Shown here: positions 43,508-50,559 of the stretch, one piece after another | Position numbering within the stretch: the first letter of the stretch is position 1 | How the letters are laid out: the number at the start of each line of letters is the position of its first letter | Source of the DNA: Halobiforma lacisalsi AJ5 | Lineage (GTDB): Archaea; Halobacteriota; Halobacteria; Halobacteriales; Natrialbaceae | Direction of reading: 5' to 3' | Length of the DNA: 64,000 nt | Assembly: GCF_000226975.2 (NCBI RefSeq) | Contig: NZ_CP019285.1 | Location: 1,488,001-1,552,000 of the forward strand | Notes under the pieces: model-generated | What the model was told of the DNA's origin: nothing | Database searches by the model: none | What the model saw: only the letters and a program-made list of their open reading frames with translations | Position numbers and translations under genes: made by a program

Positions 43508-45394
43508 ATGAACGTCGTGCCGGACACGAGCGTGGTCATCGACGGCCGCGTCTCGTCGACGATCGAAGACGGGCAGTTCGAGGGAGCGACGATCTCGGTT
43601 CCCGAAGCCGTCGTCGCGGAACTCGAGGCGCAGGCCAACGACGGCATCGAGACCGGCTGGGACGGCCTCGAGGAACTCCAGCGGCTCGCCGAGTTGGCCG
43701 ACGAGGGCGAGATCGAACTCGAGTACGTCGGCGAACGACCCAGCGCCATCGAGCGCGGCCACGCCTCTGAGGGCGAGATCGACGCGATCATCCGCGATCT
43801 GGCGGAGGACCTGGACGCGACCTTCCTCACGAGCGATGTCGTCCAGGCGGAGGTCGCCGAGGCGAAGGGACTCGACGTCGAACATATCTCCCCCGAGACC
43901 CGCGAGGTCGAGGTCGGCACGCTCACCGTCGAGAACTACTTCGACGACTCGACGATGAGCGTTCACCTCAAGACCGGTGCCGTGCCAATGGCCAAGCGAG
44001 GCGAACTCGGCGACATGCACTACCAGGAGATCGCCGAGGATCCCCTCGACGAGGGAACGATGGACGAGTACGCCCGCGAGGTCGTCGACGCGGCAAAGGA
44101 GTCGCCGGACGGCTTCCTCGAGCTTTCCGAGCCGGGCATGAAGATCGTCCAGTTCCGGGACTACCGGATCGCGATCGGCCGTCCCCCGTTCTCGGACGGC
44201 ATCGAGATCACGGCGGTCCGCCCGATCGCCCAGACCGATATCGAGGACTACGAGAACGCCGACGAACTGAAAGAGCGGTTGCTCGAGCGTCAGCGCGGCG
44301 TCCTCATCTCGGGTGCGCCCGGGGCCGGGAAGTCGACCTTCGCGCAGGCGGTCGCCCGGTTCATCTCGGACCACGATTACGCGGTCAAGACGATGGAGAA
44401 GCCCCGGGACCTGCAGGTCGGCCCCGACATCACCCAGTACACGGAACTCGGTGGGCAGATGGCAAAGACCGCCGACGCCCTGCTGATGGTTCGTCCCGAC
44501 TACACCATCTACGACGAGGTCCGCAAGACCGACGACTTCGAGGTCTTCGCCGACATGCGCCTGGCCGGCGTCGGGATGATCGGCGTCGTCCACGCGACCC
44601 GACCGATCGACGCCCTCCAGCGACTCGTCGGCCGCGTCGAACTCGGGATGATCCCGCAGGTCGTCGACACCGTCGTCTACATCGAGGCCGGCGAGGTCGA
44701 GACCGTCTACGACGTGCGGACGGAGGTCAAGGTCCCCGCGGGCCTCACCGAGGAGGACCTCGCCCGCCCGGTCATCCAGGTCACCAACTTCGAGACGGGT
44801 GAACCCGAGTACGAGATCTACACGTTCAACCGCCAGGTCGTCACCGTCCCGCTCAAAGACGAGGAGGGCGGCCCCGGCAGCGAGTCCGGCGTCGATCGCA
44901 TCGCCAAACAGGAGATCGAACGCGAGATCCGTTCGATCGCCCGGGGCTACGTCGACGTCGAACTCCGGAGCCAGGACAAGGCGGTCGTCTACGTCGAGGA
45001 GGACGACATCTCGAGCGTCATCGGCAAGGGCGGCGGCCGCATCACGGACGTCGAGAACCGCCTGGGGATCGACATCGACGTTCGGACTCACGACGAGAAC
45101 CCGAACTACGGCGCGGGCGCTGGCTCCGGCGGTGCCGGCGCGAGCGGTGACGGCGGCAGCGGGGGTCAGGCCGGACAGATGGTTACGCCCGAAGTGACCT
45201 CCAGGCACATCGTCATCCCCGTCGACGGCAACCACGGCGAGACCGTCGAAGTCCAGGCCGGCGGCGACTACCTCTTCACCGCGACGGTGAGCCGCGGCGG
45301 GGAGATCCAGGTGTCCCGCGGGAGCGCGATCGCCGAGGAACTCGAGGGGGCGATCGATCGGAAGGATCCGATTACGGTCGTGCCGTCCTCGTAG
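43508..45394 (+). CDS. PIN-domain/ATPase/KH-domain protein (COG1855 family)
   Basis: The protein has 628 residues with an unusual domain chain. A PIN domain spans about 1-130 (VVPDTSVVIDGR with Asp6, and FLTSDVVQA). An ATPase of the PilT/VirB11-type secretion superfamily follows, with Walker A GAPGAGKST at 269-276. A KH domain lies near 498-525 (SSVIGKGGGRITDVENRLG), and a Gly-rich linker plus a C-terminal beta domain follow from about 540. The role is unknown; RNA handling is likely from PIN and KH. Its last 255 bp (from 45140) are the left end of the tandem duplication. It is often annotated as a VapC-like ATPase. Confidence 0.92.
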   Translation: MNVVPDTSVVIDGRVSSTIEDGQFEGATISVPEAVVAELEAQANDGIETGWDGLEELQRLAELADEGEIELEYVGERPSAIERGHASEGEIDAIIRDLAEDLDATFLTSDVVQAEVAEAKGLDVEHISPETREVEVGTLTVENYFDDSTMSVHLKTGAVPMAKRGELGDMHYQEIAEDPLDEGTMDEYAREVVDAAKESPDGFLELSEPGMKIVQFRDYRIAIGRPPFSDGIEITAVRPIAQTDIEDYENADELKERLLERQRGVLISGAPGAGKSTFAQAVARFISDHDYAVKTMEKPRDLQVGPDITQYTELGGQMAKTADALLMVRPDYTIYDEVRKTDDFEVFADMRLAGVGMIGVVHATRPIDALQRLVGRVELGMIPQVVDTVVYIEAGEVETVYDVRTEVKVPAGLTEEDLARPVIQVTNFETGEPEYEIYTFNRQVVTVPLKDEEGGPGSESGVDRIAKQEIEREIRSIARGYVDVELRSQDKAVVYVEEDDISSVIGKGGGRITDVENRLGIDIDVRTHDENPNYGAGAGSGGAGASGDGGSGGQAGQMVTPEVTSRHIVIPVDGNHGETVEVQAGGDYLFTATVSRGGEIQVSRGSAIAEELEGAIDRKDPITVVPSS

Positions 45395-45397
45395 TCG
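45302..45397 (+). repeat. ATPase 3' tail repeat, copy within the gene
   Basis: These 96 bp end the ATPase gene and are the parent of the copies at 45482-45577 and 45654-45687. Confidence 0.85.
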
Positions 45398-45412
45398 TCC
45401 TGAGTACAGCCG

Positions 45413-45431
45413 TTTTTTGGTGCAGATTTTT
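45413..45431 (+). terminator. Double T-tract downstream of the ATPase gene
   Basis: Runs of T6 (45413-45418) and T5 (45427-45431) follow the ATPase stop by 19-33 bp. Both strands carry convergent genes here, so the tracts could end ATPase transcription before the rhodopsin gene. A similar T5/T5 pair (near 45581-45596) follows the next tail copy. Confidence 0.5.
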
Positions 45432-45481
45432 GCGCGAGCGGTGCGCCAGCGGCGCACCCGAGCGGAAAAAGGTGCGCGCGT

Positions 45482-45577
45482 GAGATCCAGGTGTCCCGCG
45501 GGAGCGCGATCGCCGAGGAACTCGAGGGGGCGATCGATCGGAAGGATCCGATTACGGTCGTGCCGTCCTCGTAGTCG
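45482..45577 (+). repeat. ATPase 3' tail repeat, second copy
   Basis: This is a perfect repeat of 45302-45397, 180 bp further on, without start codon or upstream gene part. It still carries the tag stop. It is followed by a spacer that resembles the first spacer (paired T-tracts, then purine-rich gag/gcg stretches). Confidence 0.9.
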
Positions 45578-45653
45578 GCTTTTTGGCGTAGCTTTTTGAA
45601 GGAGTGATGAGCGAGCACCGCGAGCGAACCCGACGAGAAAAGGATACGTGTGC

Positions 45654-45687
45654 GAGATCCAGGTCTCGTGCGGGAGCGCGATCGCCG
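45654..45687 (+). repeat. ATPase 3' tail repeat, third and degraded copy
   Basis: The first 34 bp of the tail recur with a few substitutions (gagatccaggtctcgtgcgg and the following gagcgcgatcgccg), 172 bp after the second copy. The series fades out before the rhodopsin stop codon. Confidence 0.7.
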
Positions 45688-45805
45688 CCGCTATCGGTCG
45701 ATTACGTTCGGTCGCCGAAAAAATCGATCGCGGGTCGATTTCGCGGTTTTGCGGTTTCGCGACGGCCGGCGCCGAACCGGCCGTCGGATCGGCGTTGTCG
45801 GGTCG

Positions 45806-46531
45806 TTAGCTCGGTGCGGCCGTCGGCGTGACGGCGCTCTCGAGGACCGAGCGACTGCGGAGCAGGACCACACCGAAGCCGACCTTCGCCGAGAGGTCGA
45901 GCACCATGAACGCGGCAGTCTCCCAGTACAGCGGGAGGATGCCGAACGTCCCTTCGGTGCCGAGGATCCAGACGACCGGGTACAGAAGCCACAGCACGAT
46001 GACCAGGTTACGAAGGGTGCCGAACAGTGACGCGACCTCGGCCGACTTGCTTCGGGCCTTCTCGGAGAGGGTCCCCACGAGGACGTACAGCAGGACCAGC
46101 AGGGCGCCGGTGCTGATGCCCCACCACGCGATGCGGGTCGCGGGCGTCGAGGCGAACGTCGCGATCGCGCCGGTGCCGATCATGAAGACGTCGAGTCCGA
46201 TCAGCGTCGCGATCGTATTACGGTTCGCCCCGGCCAGCAGCGACAGGTCGAGCAACAGGAGCGGCGTCGTGAACAGCCAGTCGGTATATCGCGCCCAGTA
46301 GATCGTGAGCGCCTCGTCGCCGACCATGACGTCGGTGACGCCGAAGCCCGTCGCCATCGCGAAGTAATTCACCGCCGCGATGGACGTGATGAAGATCGTG
46401 ATGATGTAGAACTCCTGCATCTTCGCGTCGCGAACGCCGCGTCCGCGGCCGACGAAGTACAGGGTGCCGAGTGTCATTCCTATCGTCCCGATCCACAGCC
46501 ACAGGGATTCTGGACCGACTGCTGTGGTCAT
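45806..46531 (-). CDS. bop: Proton-pumping rhodopsin (deltarhodopsin/bacteriorhodopsin type), copy 1
   Basis: The protein has 241 residues and seven helices. Pump residues are all in place: Arg81, Asp84 (acceptor), Thr88 and Asp95 (donor) in [16 protein letters not shown]; Glu193 and Glu204 of the release group in [15 protein letters not shown]; Asp212 and the retinal Schiff-base Lys216 in [10 protein letters not shown]. This is an outward H+ pump, not a halorhodopsin or sensory rhodopsin. The sequence closely matches my memory of Haloterrigena deltarhodopsin. ATG 46531 is preferred over TTG 46537 because the TATA box lies 25 bp upstream. Copy 2 at 47706-48431 encodes an identical protein. 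Confidence 0.96.
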
Positions 46532-46550
46532 ACACAAATGTATGAACGAT

Positions 46551-46582
46551 TGTTATATACTGGTTATGCCTAACGAGATACC
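46551..46582 (-). promoter_or_regulatory. Rhodopsin promoter, copy 1: TATA box and upstream element
   Basis: On the minus strand, gtatataaca (46551-46560) is centred about 25 bp before ATG 46531. Immediately upstream is tatctcgttaggc (46568-46580). From memory this resembles the UAS of the Halobacterium bop promoter (a CTCGTTAGG-type core bound by Bat). That match should be treated as recollection, not a computed result. Confidence 0.55.
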
Positions 46583-46698
46583 CCTCCCCCTCCGAGCGAC
46601 TGAACGTCCGGATAGTTGACCATGGGTACAAAACCGTAGCGTATATCCAGTGTCCTCGTTTCCCAATACATAGCCCGACGCGACTCCTTCCAGAACAG

Positions 46699-47106
46699 AT
46701 GACCCCAACCGATCCGAACGATCCGATCGCGGACGCACTGCTCGGCGAATCGACGTACGAACGGCTCCGAGTGGAGCGATACGCGCTGATCAAACGACGG
46801 ATTCCGGAAAAACTCGTCTACCAGAGCGCCCTCCTGTTCGCGCTCGCGCTCGTCGTTCCGATCGTCGCTACCTATCCATCCTCGGTCCAGGCCGGCTTCC
46901 CGGGCGGCGATCCACTGTGGTCGTCGCCGCTTGTCCTCTGGGTCGGCGTCTACGCCGGCGGCATCGAGTTGGCAACTGCAACGTGTCTCGTTGCGGTGGC
47001 TCTCGTTCGTCGCCGATGGGAATCCCGGCTCTCGGAGTCGCAGGTGCAGCGAGCGGTGACGGCGGCAGCGGGGGTCAGGCCGGACAGATGGTTACGCCCG
47101 AAGTGA
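46699..47106 (+). pseudogene. Truncated chimeric copy of the 200-residue membrane-protein gene
   Basis: The first 350 bp (46699-47048) are identical to the intact gene at 48599, including promoter and ATG. The duplication junction then adds out-of-frame ATPase-tail DNA, giving a 135-residue product: 116 native residues (two to three membrane segments) and an unrelated tail RAVTAAAGVRPDRWLRPK. The C-terminal half of the native protein is missing. It may still be translated. Confidence 0.85.
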
Positions 47107-47303
47107 CCTCCAGGCACATCGTCATCCCCGTCGACGGCAACCACGGCGAGACCGTCGAAGTCCAGGCCGGCGGCGACTACCTCTTCACCGCGACGGTGAG
47201 CCGCGGCGGGGAGATCCAGGTGTCCCGCGGGAGCGCGATCGCCGAGGAACTCGAGGGGGCGATCGATCGGAAGGATCCGATTACGGTCGTGCCGTCGTCC
47301 TGA
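47049..47303 (+). pseudogene. Orphan 3' tail of the PIN-KH ATPase gene
   Basis: These 255 bp correspond to residues from about 545 to the stop of the ATPase. There is no start codon and the upstream reading frame belongs to the truncated membrane-protein gene. The 9-bp indel changes the end from ccg tcc tcg tag to ccg tcg tcc tga, so both copies still read Pro-Ser-Ser-stop. Confidence 0.85.
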
Positions 47304-47381
47304 GTACAGCCGTTTTTTGGTGCAGATTTTTGCGCGAGCGGTGCGCCAGCGGCGCACCCGAGCGGAAAAAGGTGCGCGCGT

Positions 47382-47477
47382 GAGATCCAGGTGTCCCGCG
47401 GGAGCGCGATCGCCGAGGAACTCGAGGGGGCGATCGATCGGAAGGATCCGATTACGGTCGTGCCGTCCTCGTAGTCG
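47382..47477 (+). repeat. ATPase tail repeat inside duplication unit 2
   Basis: This is the unit-2 counterpart of 45482-45577. A degraded piece at 47554-47587 corresponds to 45654-45687. The rest of 47304-47705 holds only the T-tract spacers and no gene I can support. Confidence 0.85.
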
Positions 47478-47705
47478 GCTTTTTGGCGTAGCTTTTTGAA
47501 GGAGTGATGAGCGAGCACCGCGAGCGAACCCGACGAGAAAAGGATACGTGTGCGAGATCCAGGTCTCGTGCGGGAGCGCGATCGCCGCCGCTATCGGTCG
47601 ATTACGTTCGGTCGCCGAAAAAATCGATCGCGGGTCGATTTCGCGGTTTTGCGGTTTCGCGACGGCCGGCGCCGAACCGGCCGTCGGATCGGCGTTGTCG
47701 GGTCG

Positions 47706-48431
47706 TTAGCTCGGTGCGGCCGTCGGCGTGACGGCGCTCTCGAGGACCGAGCGACTGCGGAGCAGGACCACACCGAAGCCGACCTTCGCCGAGAGGTCGA
47801 GCACCATGAACGCGGCAGTCTCCCAGTACAGCGGGAGGATGCCGAACGTCCCTTCGGTGCCGAGGATCCAGACGACCGGGTACAGAAGCCACAGCACGAT
47901 GACCAGGTTACGAAGGGTGCCGAACAGTGACGCGACCTCGGCCGACTTGCTTCGGGCCTTCTCGGAGAGGGTCCCCACGAGGACGTACAGCAGGACCAGC
48001 AGGGCGCCGGTGCTGATGCCCCACCACGCGATGCGGGTCGCGGGCGTCGAGGCGAACGTCGCGATCGCGCCGGTGCCGATCATGAAGACGTCGAGTCCGA
48101 TCAGCGTCGCGATCGTATTACGGTTCGCCCCGGCCAGCAGCGACAGGTCGAGCAACAGGAGCGGCGTCGTGAACAGCCAGTCGGTATATCGCGCCCAGTA
48201 GATCGTGAGCGCCTCGTCGCCGACCATGACGTCGGTGACGCCGAAGCCCGTCGCCATCGCGAAGTAATTCACCGCCGCGATGGACGTGATGAAGATCGTG
48301 ATGATGTAGAACTCCTGCATCTTCGCGTCGCGAACGCCGCGTCCGCGGCCGACGAAGTACAGGGTGCCGAGTGTCATTCCTATCGTCCCGATCCACAGCC
48401 ACAGGGATTCTGGACCGACTGCTGTGGTCAT
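47706..48431 (-). CDS. bop: Proton-pumping rhodopsin (deltarhodopsin/bacteriorhodopsin type), copy 2
   Basis: This 241-residue protein is identical to copy 1, with the same pump residues Arg81, Asp84, Asp95, Glu193, Glu204, Asp212 and Lys216. The start is ATG 48431. This copy keeps the original arrangement with the intact divergent membrane-protein gene at 48599, whereas copy 1 faces the truncated one. Both have the same promoter, so the effect expected from the duplication is increased dosage rather than new function. Confidence 0.96.
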
Positions 48432-48450
48432 ACACAAATGTATGAACGAT

Positions 48451-48482
48451 TGTTATATACTGGTTATGCCTAACGAGATACC
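48451..48482 (-). promoter_or_regulatory. Rhodopsin promoter, copy 2
   Basis: This is the same TATA box and upstream element as at 46551-46582, shifted by 1900 bp. The 167-bp region between the rhodopsin ATG and the divergent ATG at 48599 is unchanged, so both genes in this copy may be co-regulated. Confidence 0.55.
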
Positions 48483-48598
48483 CCTCCCCCTCCGAGCGAC
48501 TGAACGTCCGGATAGTTGACCATGGGTACAAAACCGTAGCGTATATCCAGTGTCCTCGTTTCCCAATACATAGCCCGACGCGACTCCTTCCAGAACAG

Positions 48599-49201
48599 AT
48601 GACCCCAACCGATCCGAACGATCCGATCGCGGACGCACTGCTCGGCGAATCGACGTACGAACGGCTCCGAGTGGAGCGATACGCGCTGATCAAACGACGG
48701 ATTCCGGAAAAACTCGTCTACCAGAGCGCCCTCCTGTTCGCGCTCGCGCTCGTCGTTCCGATCGTCGCTACCTATCCATCCTCGGTCCAGGCCGGCTTCC
48801 CGGGCGGCGATCCACTGTGGTCGTCGCCGCTTGTCCTCTGGGTCGGCGTCTACGCCGGCGGCATCGAGTTGGCAACTGCAACGTGTCTCGTTGCGGTGGC
48901 TCTCGTTCGTCGCCGATGGGAATCCCGGCTCTCGGAGTCGCAGGTGCACGCGTTACTGAACGTCGAGGACGTCGCGTCGATGTTCGGATTGGCGACCGGC
49001 GGCTTCGCGATCCTGATCACTGTCGGGTTCTTCTTGCTCGGTCACGCCGGTCCCGAGACGTTCTCCTCCGTCGTCGAAGCCGCCCCGCGAAACCCCTACG
49101 GAGCGACCGGTCTCTCCGTCCCCGTGATCGCAGTCGGCACCGCGGCGGCGATCAGTTCCTCCGTCGTGTACTCGATCGGCCGGTACCTCTCTCGCGAGTG
49201 A
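48599..49201 (+). CDS. Membrane protein divergently paired with rhodopsin
   Basis: The protein has 200 residues. A polar N-terminus of about 45 residues (DPNDPIADALLGESTYERLRVERYALIKRR) precedes about four membrane segments, near 46-64, 85-105, 125-150 and 168-192. I do not recognise the family. It shares a 167-bp divergent promoter region with the rhodopsin gene. This suggests a role in purple-membrane assembly, retinal supply or light response, but only by position. The first copy of the gene is truncated by the tandem duplication. Confidence 0.82.
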   Translation: MTPTDPNDPIADALLGESTYERLRVERYALIKRRIPEKLVYQSALLFALALVVPIVATYPSSVQAGFPGGDPLWSSPLVLWVGVYAGGIELATATCLVAVALVRRRWESRLSESQVHALLNVEDVASMFGLATGGFAILITVGFFLLGHAGPETFSSVVEAAPRNPYGATGLSVPVIAVGTAAAISSSVVYSIGRYLSRE

Positions 49202-49225: not shown

Positions 49226-49900
49226 TCAGGCCTCGTCCCGTCGCTCCTGGAACCGACGAGCGACCAGCACGAAGGGACCCGCGAGGGCCAGGAACAGCTG
49301 CCAGCCGCTCTCTGCGACTGGGAACAGCCGCTCGACCGGTTCGTCGGGTTCCTCGACCGTTTCCGAGGGTTCGACCGGGTTGGCGACGTGTGTATCCGCG
49401 GTCGTCCCCGTCGCACCCACGTCCGTCATCTCGCCGCCGTCGGCGCCGACGTCGACGTCGACGAACGTCTGGACGATCCCGTCGGTCGTCGAGAGGGCGA
49501 GTTCCCCCTCGAGACGCAGGAATCGGTCGTAGACGGGGTAGAAGGCGTTGATCCCCTCGAGGTGGGCGTAATCCAGCAGCACGTGTGCGAAGACGTGGAC
49601 GAACAGGGCGACCCACGCCACCGTCACGCCCCACTGCCCCCATCGTCCGCGGAGCCACGAGCGGTCGGTCTCCCGGAGACGGGTGTCCCAGTACAGCCAC
49701 AGGCCGGCCAGCAGTGGGATCGTCAGATTGTGCAACAGGGCGCGGTGGGCGCCATCCAGCCACAGGCCGGCGGCCGAGTCGATCTCGGGGAGGGCGACCA
49801 GAGCGAGGAGGACGGCAATGGCCCGTCGATCGAGCGTTCCCCGCAGCAGTCCCGCTGCGAGCAGAAGGGTGAAGCCGGCGTGGACGGTCGTCGACGGCAT
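49226..49900 (-). CDS. YdjM-like membrane-bound metal-dependent hydrolase (paralogue A)
   Basis: The protein has 224 residues with four to five membrane segments. STTVHAGFTLLLAAGLL with a conserved N-terminal His, LPEIDSAAGLW, and HRALLHNLTIPLL recall the YdjM/PF04307 family of membrane metal-dependent hydrolases. WDTRLRETDRSWLRGRWG is shared with the next gene. The later part is a Thr/Glu-rich extracytoplasmic stretch and a C-terminal helix. Its ATG overlaps the stop of paralogue B by one base, so they are translationally coupled. Confidence 0.75.
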   Translation of the reverse strand: MPSTTVHAGFTLLLAAGLLRGTLDRRAIAVLLALVALPEIDSAAGLWLDGAHRALLHNLTIPLLAGLWLYWDTRLRETDRSWLRGRWGQWGVTVAWVALFVHVFAHVLLDYAHLEGINAFYPVYDRFLRLEGELALSTTDGIVQTFVDVDVGADGGEMTDVGATGTTADTHVANPVEPSETVEEPDEPVERLFPVAESGWQLFLALAGPFVLVARRFQERRDEA

Positions 49901-50559
49901 CAGCGATCACCTGCCGCCCCCGCGACGTGGAAGCGAACAGCGACGGCAGCCACCGCAGCCCCGACCACGGTCAGTTGCCAGCCTGACTCGACGATCGTGA
50001 GTCGCCGTTCGACGCCCCGCTCGAGTCCGGTTCCGGGAGTCGGGTTCACCCAGGTCTCGACGTGGTGGGTGGCGGTCGTGCCGGGCGAGGACAGCCACAG
50101 GAGACCCTCGCCGCGTTCGACGAACGTCAGGATCACGCCCTCGTGGGTCGACAGGAGGAGTCGGCCGACGACCGCGTAGAACCGGTCGTGGAGTGGATAG
50201 AGCAGGTTCACGCCGCCTGGCCCGAACAGATCGAGACCGATTCCGGCGACTGCGTAGGCCGCGAGCGCGACCCAGGCGACGCGGATGCCGTCCCAGCCCC
50301 ACTGTCGGCGGAGCCACGATCGGTCGGGATCTCGGTAGCGGGTATCCCAGTAGAGGGCGACGAACGCCGCACCCGGGAGCAACAGGGTGTGGAACGCGGC
50401 GTTGGTCGCGCCCGGAACCGCGAGGCCCAGAACCGCGTCGAGGTCGGGAACCGCCGCGGCGACGGCGACGACGAGGACGGACCGGCGATCGAACGCCGAA
50501 CCCAGCAACGCGAGCGCGAACAACGCGCCGACGGCGACGTTGACCGTCGTCGGTGCCAT
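49900..50559 (-). CDS. YdjM-like membrane protein (paralogue B)
   Basis: The protein has 219 residues. It aligns with paralogue A throughout: VPDLDAVLGL, NAAFHTLLLPG, YWDTRYRDPDRSWLRRQWG, and a terminal VESGWQLTVVGAAV. The N-terminal His of family members is replaced by Asn (PTTVNVAVG), so metal binding may be altered or lost. It is the first gene of the pair. No promoter motif is clear in the 126 bp before it. Confidence 0.74.
   Translation of the reverse strand: MAPTTVNVAVGALFALALLGSAFDRRSVLVVAVAAAVPDLDAVLGLAVPGATNAAFHTLLLPGAAFVALYWDTRYRDPDRSWLRRQWGWDGIRVAWVALAAYAVAGIGLDLFGPGGVNLLYPLHDRFYAVVGRLLLSTHEGVILTFVERGEGLLWLSSPGTTATHHVETWVNPTPGTGLERGVERRLTIVESGWQLTVVGAAVAAVAVRFHVAGAAGDR

Follow-up and report, generated by a model that had tools for sequence, protein, structure and literature searches.

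The 64,000-nucleotide stretch of Halobiforma lacisalsi AJ5 DNA analysed here (the window) carries a gene for a small membrane protein, hereafter MP, next to a rhodopsin gene, and the pair lies within a tandem duplication of ~1.9 kb. The features of the locus were as follows.

45140 to 47048, no strand: duplication unit 1, defined by exact repeats at offsets of 1900 and 1909; absent from Halobiforma haloterrestris (L005).
45806 to 46531, minus strand: second, identical rhodopsin gene (open reading frame, PF01036, sequence).
46699 to 47106, plus strand: shortened MP copy, with the first ~117 codons followed by an unrelated frame and without helices 3 and 4.
47049 to 48948, no strand: duplication unit 2, with a 9-base indel relative to unit 1.
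47706 to 48431, minus strand: rhodopsin gene, presumably of the proton-pump type by its helix C motif (PF01036, E 1e-66; sequence).
48432 to 48598, no strand: divergent intergenic region with conserved blocks (alignment of 16 species).
48599 to 49201, plus strand: MP, a 200-residue, predicted four-helix membrane protein (open reading frame, purifying selection, hydropathy, family in 99 of 293 genomes).

The MP open reading frame begins with ATG and encodes 200 residues, and hydropathy placed four hydrophobic regions at residues 35-67, ~73-105, 122-156, and 167-194, as the original prediction of a 200-residue, roughly four-helix protein had it. Codon changes were compared with four relatives. 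Between MP and its counterpart in H. haloterrestris dS was 0.076 and dN 0.007, and for three further relatives, of which two are named Natrinema, dS was 0.41-0.46 and dN 0.076-0.083. The MP gene is real, and these values show purifying selection on it. Since the positive charges are concentrated in the first 40 residues and in the loop that joins hydrophobic regions 2 and 3, both of these parts are probably cytoplasmic, as judged from the charge count only. A glutamate (E123), located at the end of the third hydrophobic region that is predicted to face the cytoplasm, was invariant in 94 of 94 MP rows.

The original prediction assigned MP to no family. Searches of Pfam and NCBIfam returned no family above cut-off; the best NCBIfam match of the window's MP had an E of 0.056, far under the cut-off of that family, and when 61 MP rows were compared with Pfam, any one family was reached by at most one row (best E 0.029). 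The matches of an MP profile to PDB sequences all had E values above 0.2. An AlphaFold2 model built from 14 rows (mean pLDDT 62.8, pTM 0.47) was too weak for naming a fold, and its best Foldseek match in the PDB had an E of 1.2. None of the comparisons with Pfam, NCBIfam, and the PDB supplied a structure or domain in support of a functional assignment. PF01036 was unmatched, so MP is not a type 1 rhodopsin. Judged by sequence, MP is a member of an unnamed haloarchaeal family. Downstream of MP, two adjacent genes for YdjM-like membrane proteins (PF04307) occupy 49226-50559 on the minus strand.

The neighbouring gene was identified as a type 1 rhodopsin by PF01036, and was read from its ATG (47706-48431, minus strand); the open reading frame tool had placed a TTG start at 48437. 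Its helix C motif we take, from what is known of bacteriorhodopsin, to indicate a proton pump. The two genes diverge from a gap of 167 bp, the distance and orientation originally described. In the 16-species alignment, partially conserved blocks lay between both starts, including a TATA-like block near the rhodopsin start. These blocks are compatible with a shared regulatory region.

Positions 45394-47048 are identical to 47294-48948, and 45140-45387 to 47049-47296; as a result of these exact repeats, a second identical rhodopsin gene and a shortened MP copy lie upstream of the pair. The 9-base indel between the units speaks against a plain assembly copy, without excluding one. In H. haloterrestris the MP protein is 99% identical and the duplication is absent. 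In each unit, the 3' end of a PIN-domain ATPase gene (43508-45394) is repeated past the gene's own stop and before the rhodopsin gene (45316-45540 and 47225-47440). The same genome holds a second proton-pump-type rhodopsin, 86% identical to that of the window, adjoined by an MP pseudogene (L047 6890-7330, at about 4106480 of C1) that has no ATG and is missing ~residues 88-163. It also holds an opsin with the motif RYLTWTFSTPMILLALG, which we take to be of the halorhodopsin type; ~120 bp beyond it, on the same strand, lies a second complete MP (L048), 29% identical to that of the window.

We further surveyed the family across the order. The window's MP as a query matched 97 of 293 genomes, a 61-row profile matched 98, and a 43-row profile that included two divergent members matched 99, spread over 29 of 87 genera. 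Of 120 genomes sampled from the phylum, some of them from the order, six matched, and all six were in the order; no relatives were found in IMG/VR. An opsin was present in 82 of the 99 MP genomes versus 114 of the 194 genomes without MP. Linkage was defined as an opsin within 3 kb of MP, with opsins scored by a profile built in this analysis. By this measure 33 of the 99 genomes were linked, representing 17 of 29 genera (the genera tallied from locus listings), versus a chance expectation of ~0.6% per genome for three opsins in 3.8 Mb. Every one of 13 relatives named in GTDB had an opsin next door. MP flanks were examined in most of the 99 genomes. Among the 66 genomes whose MP had no opsin identified within 3 kb, the flanks were read for 56 and the remaining 10 were judged from listed opsin positions, two of these (G201 and G241) having opsin matches without listed positions.

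The original prediction had anticipated conserved linkage in several genera of the Natrialbaceae, and linkage was indeed found in 22 of 25 genomes of this family and well beyond it. The same prediction would be undermined by homologues lying mainly away from rhodopsin genes, and on this point the outcome was divided: by raw genome count across the order 66 of 99 genomes carry the homologue elsewhere and 17 of 99 have no opsin at all, whereas within the window's own family the homologues lie mainly beside opsins. Since linked genomes are not independent of one another, an MP tree was needed for judging linkage. The linkage state changed at least nine times on the tree, six of these changes being forced by well-supported branches.

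The arrangements of MP and opsin varied: divergent, tandem in either order, and convergent, with both proton pumps and halorhodopsins as partners. Most of the window's family, with f1g16 and f1g19 among them, had a proton pump divergent from MP, and so did f5g57, f5g64, f4g79, and Halobium, which lie outside that family. In all four genomes of f6g60 MP comes after the proton pump on the same strand, and a Bat-type regulator carrying BAT and HTH_10 domains lies upstream. A halorhodopsin precedes MP on one strand in L048, L050, and L065, follows it on one strand in L127 and L128, and is convergent with it in L070 and L074, where a Bat-type gene lies on the other side. In L107 a CDC48-type AAA gene lies within the 2.4 kb that separate a proton pump from MP. 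A 684-residue open frame in L107 was considered as an MP fusion and rejected, the frame lying opposite the CDC48-type gene. Thus an opsin-linked gene was found in recurrent, independent arrangements.

At the halorhodopsin loci L127 and L128 the neighbours included carotenoid genes. In L127 a single-strand run continues from MP and halorhodopsin into two further genes, one resembling lycopene cyclase (PF18916, just below cut-off) and one for a beta-carotene dioxygenase (PF15461, E 1.6e-76), and in L128 the pair is followed by a lycopene cyclase gene. The L127 run would suit a role of MP in handling retinal or a carotenoid precursor for the opsin. We consider this very improbable, in that such a neighbourhood occurs at two loci only, MP is unlike the beta-carotene dioxygenase and lycopene cyclase families (PF15461, the Brp/Blh beta-carotene dioxygenase family, was unmatched by the MPs of the window, L127, L128, and L048), and MP persists in genomes without opsins.

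The regulators found near MP bear on a second alternative, that MP is a sensor or relay which reads the pump state or the membrane potential and signals to soluble regulators. Bat-type regulators share a cluster with MP in f6g60 and f14g54, several copies in group f17g48 are followed by DUF7344 and DICT-domain genes, and the invariant E123 is predicted at a cytoplasmic helix end. Nevertheless such a role is improbable, because MP has no signalling domain (Pfam found no chemotaxis signalling domain in the window's MP or across 61 MP rows) and most linked loci have no such regulators. A link of the DICT domain to light found no confirmation in our literature search. In f17g48 the DUF7344 and DICT-domain genes follow MP at L063, L092, L094, and L101, and most of these genomes are opsin-free. 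Elsewhere, the contexts of unlinked MPs were varied, such as a translation-gene cluster or a position beside dihydrolipoamide dehydrogenase and prephenate dehydratase-like genes, these neighbours being named from reading translations rather than from family searches.

In the ribosomal protein L11/L1/L10/L12 region (L051, L053, L103, L050), opsin-MP pairs lie at two different points according to group, and in L051 an MP without an opsin sits at the same locus as the pairs of L053 and L103. The region looks as if it were a favoured insertion or loss site. Since L053, L103, and L051 share this locus, the cassettes move or decay. It could then be argued that the linkage has no function, opsin-MP pairs having moved together on mobile segments and been retained by chance; the pairs of two groups at one ribosomal-protein locus, and the opsin-less MP there, are what this explanation would predict. 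It is nonetheless quite improbable, as differing orientations, two opsin types, and nine changes of linkage are hard to derive from one inherited neighbourhood, and as MP is under purifying selection.

The MP branches were then compared with the type of the linked opsin. The tree contained 72 rows: 23 near-copies were dropped from a first tree of 93 rows and the MPs of L127 and L128 were added, and rows shorter than 150 residues (the shortened and decayed copies) were excluded from both trees. The 28 linked rows of the 72-row tree comprised 6 linked to halorhodopsins and 22 linked to proton pumps, and a single change of label separated them. A halorhodopsin was present in all 19 genomes that carry a halorhodopsin-type MP, whether this MP is linked or unlinked, versus 133 of 293 genomes overall; these 19 came from only 7 genera. 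An obligate partner would be absent where opsins are absent. For the halorhodopsin-type branches alone this was the case, all 19 genomes having a halorhodopsin. For the family as a whole it was not, since 17 of the 99 MP genomes, in 5 genera and all on the proton-pump-type side of the MP tree, are opsin-free. That the halorhodopsin-type MP tracks one halorhodopsin lineage was unsupported: on a tree of 40 halorhodopsins its presence changed 8 times, approximately the shuffled level. Because MP presence is scattered on this tree, halorhodopsin works without MP, and MP comes and goes.

These observations frame a serious rival, a broader membrane role. MP might serve haloarchaeal energy or stress physiology in a general way, as a membrane protein that makes no contact with opsins and is co-located with them through shared conditions of need. 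The 17 of 99 MP genomes without opsins, the 66 of 99 that carry MP elsewhere, and the variety of its contexts all point this way. Shared conditions alone, however, would not lead one to expect that MP branches match opsin types among the linked rows, or that the halorhodopsin-type MP co-occurs with halorhodopsin in 19 of 19 genomes, and we regard this explanation as somewhat unlikely, while giving it due weight.

MP is probably a helper of light-driven pumps, because it lies repeatedly beside pump genes in several arrangements. Our preferred reading, which we hold tentatively, is that haloarchaeal ion-pumping rhodopsins have in MP a facultative membrane accessory, which exists in proton-pump and halorhodopsin versions. 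The four-helix protein would be placed beside the opsin in the membrane and would contact it; the N-terminus of MP and the loop joining helix 2 to helix 3 are predicted on the cytoplasmic side. There it might aid the insertion, stability, oligomeric state, or output of the opsin, one side of the family presumably serving proton pumps and the other side halorhodopsins. For the accessory reading we counted the linkage in 33 of 99 genomes, the varied arrangements, the subtype match, the carotenoid, Bat, and CDC48-type neighbours, and the presence of opsins in 82 of 99 genomes versus 114 of 194. Against it we counted the 66 of 99 unlinked genomes, the 17 opsin-free genomes, the 114 opsin-bearing genomes without MP, the scatter on the halorhodopsin tree, the decayed MP beside the second proton pump of the window's genome, and the origin of the 19 halorhodopsin-type genomes from only 7 genera. 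The survival of relatives in opsin-free genomes means that, in those genomes, the family must serve a different client or do a more general job. A stronger version, in which MP is a dedicated partner of light-driven pumps with versions matched to proton pumps and halorhodopsins, and so the pump counterpart, so far unnamed, of the sensory-rhodopsin transducer subunit, seemed to us unlikely.

The light-driven pumps of haloarchaea, known from textbooks and used as optogenetic tools, are usually regarded as self-sufficient. If MP is a true accessory, it would be a testable factor for pump assembly or output, and it might aid pump expression in other cells.

The transducers of sensory rhodopsins (Htr) cross the membrane twice and carry a chemotaxis signalling domain. 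Like MP, Htr is a membrane protein encoded beside an opsin, whereas in MP there are four hydrophobic stretches and Pfam finds no domain. Passages of PMC1885257 state that Htr helps opsin insertion. No description of MP was found in the titles and abstracts listed by searches of an open library, most subscription papers lying outside this scope, or in passages of PMC1885257, PMC2253796, PMC5496347, PMC5877348, PMC3403918, PMC4230888, PMC3402447, and PMC3404096. Passages of Tarasov et al. 2008 (PMC2253796) describe OE3107F and Blp (bop-linked protein, OE3100F). Blp is, like MP, a gene of unknown function in an opsin cluster (the bop cluster); it is described as adjacent to bat in Halobacterium. 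In passages of Sharma et al. 2007 (PMC1885257), Bap and Bac are named as bacteriorhodopsin-linked. Bac, a CDC48-type AAA ATPase, is an opsin-linked accessory gene like MP, but its product is soluble and unrelated to MP; in L107 the CDC48-type gene that separates MP from the opsin resembles it. Bap (bacterio-opsin associated protein) is described there as a protein of 50-70 residues with two membrane passes and unknown function, for which a role in opsin biogenesis was proposed from gene linkage. Compared to Bap, MP is larger (200 residues), has four passes instead of two, and is linked to halorhodopsins as well, so that MP differs from Bap in size and passes and shares with it the linkage to bacteriorhodopsin. 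Both are small membrane proteins whose genes recur beside that of bacteriorhodopsin.
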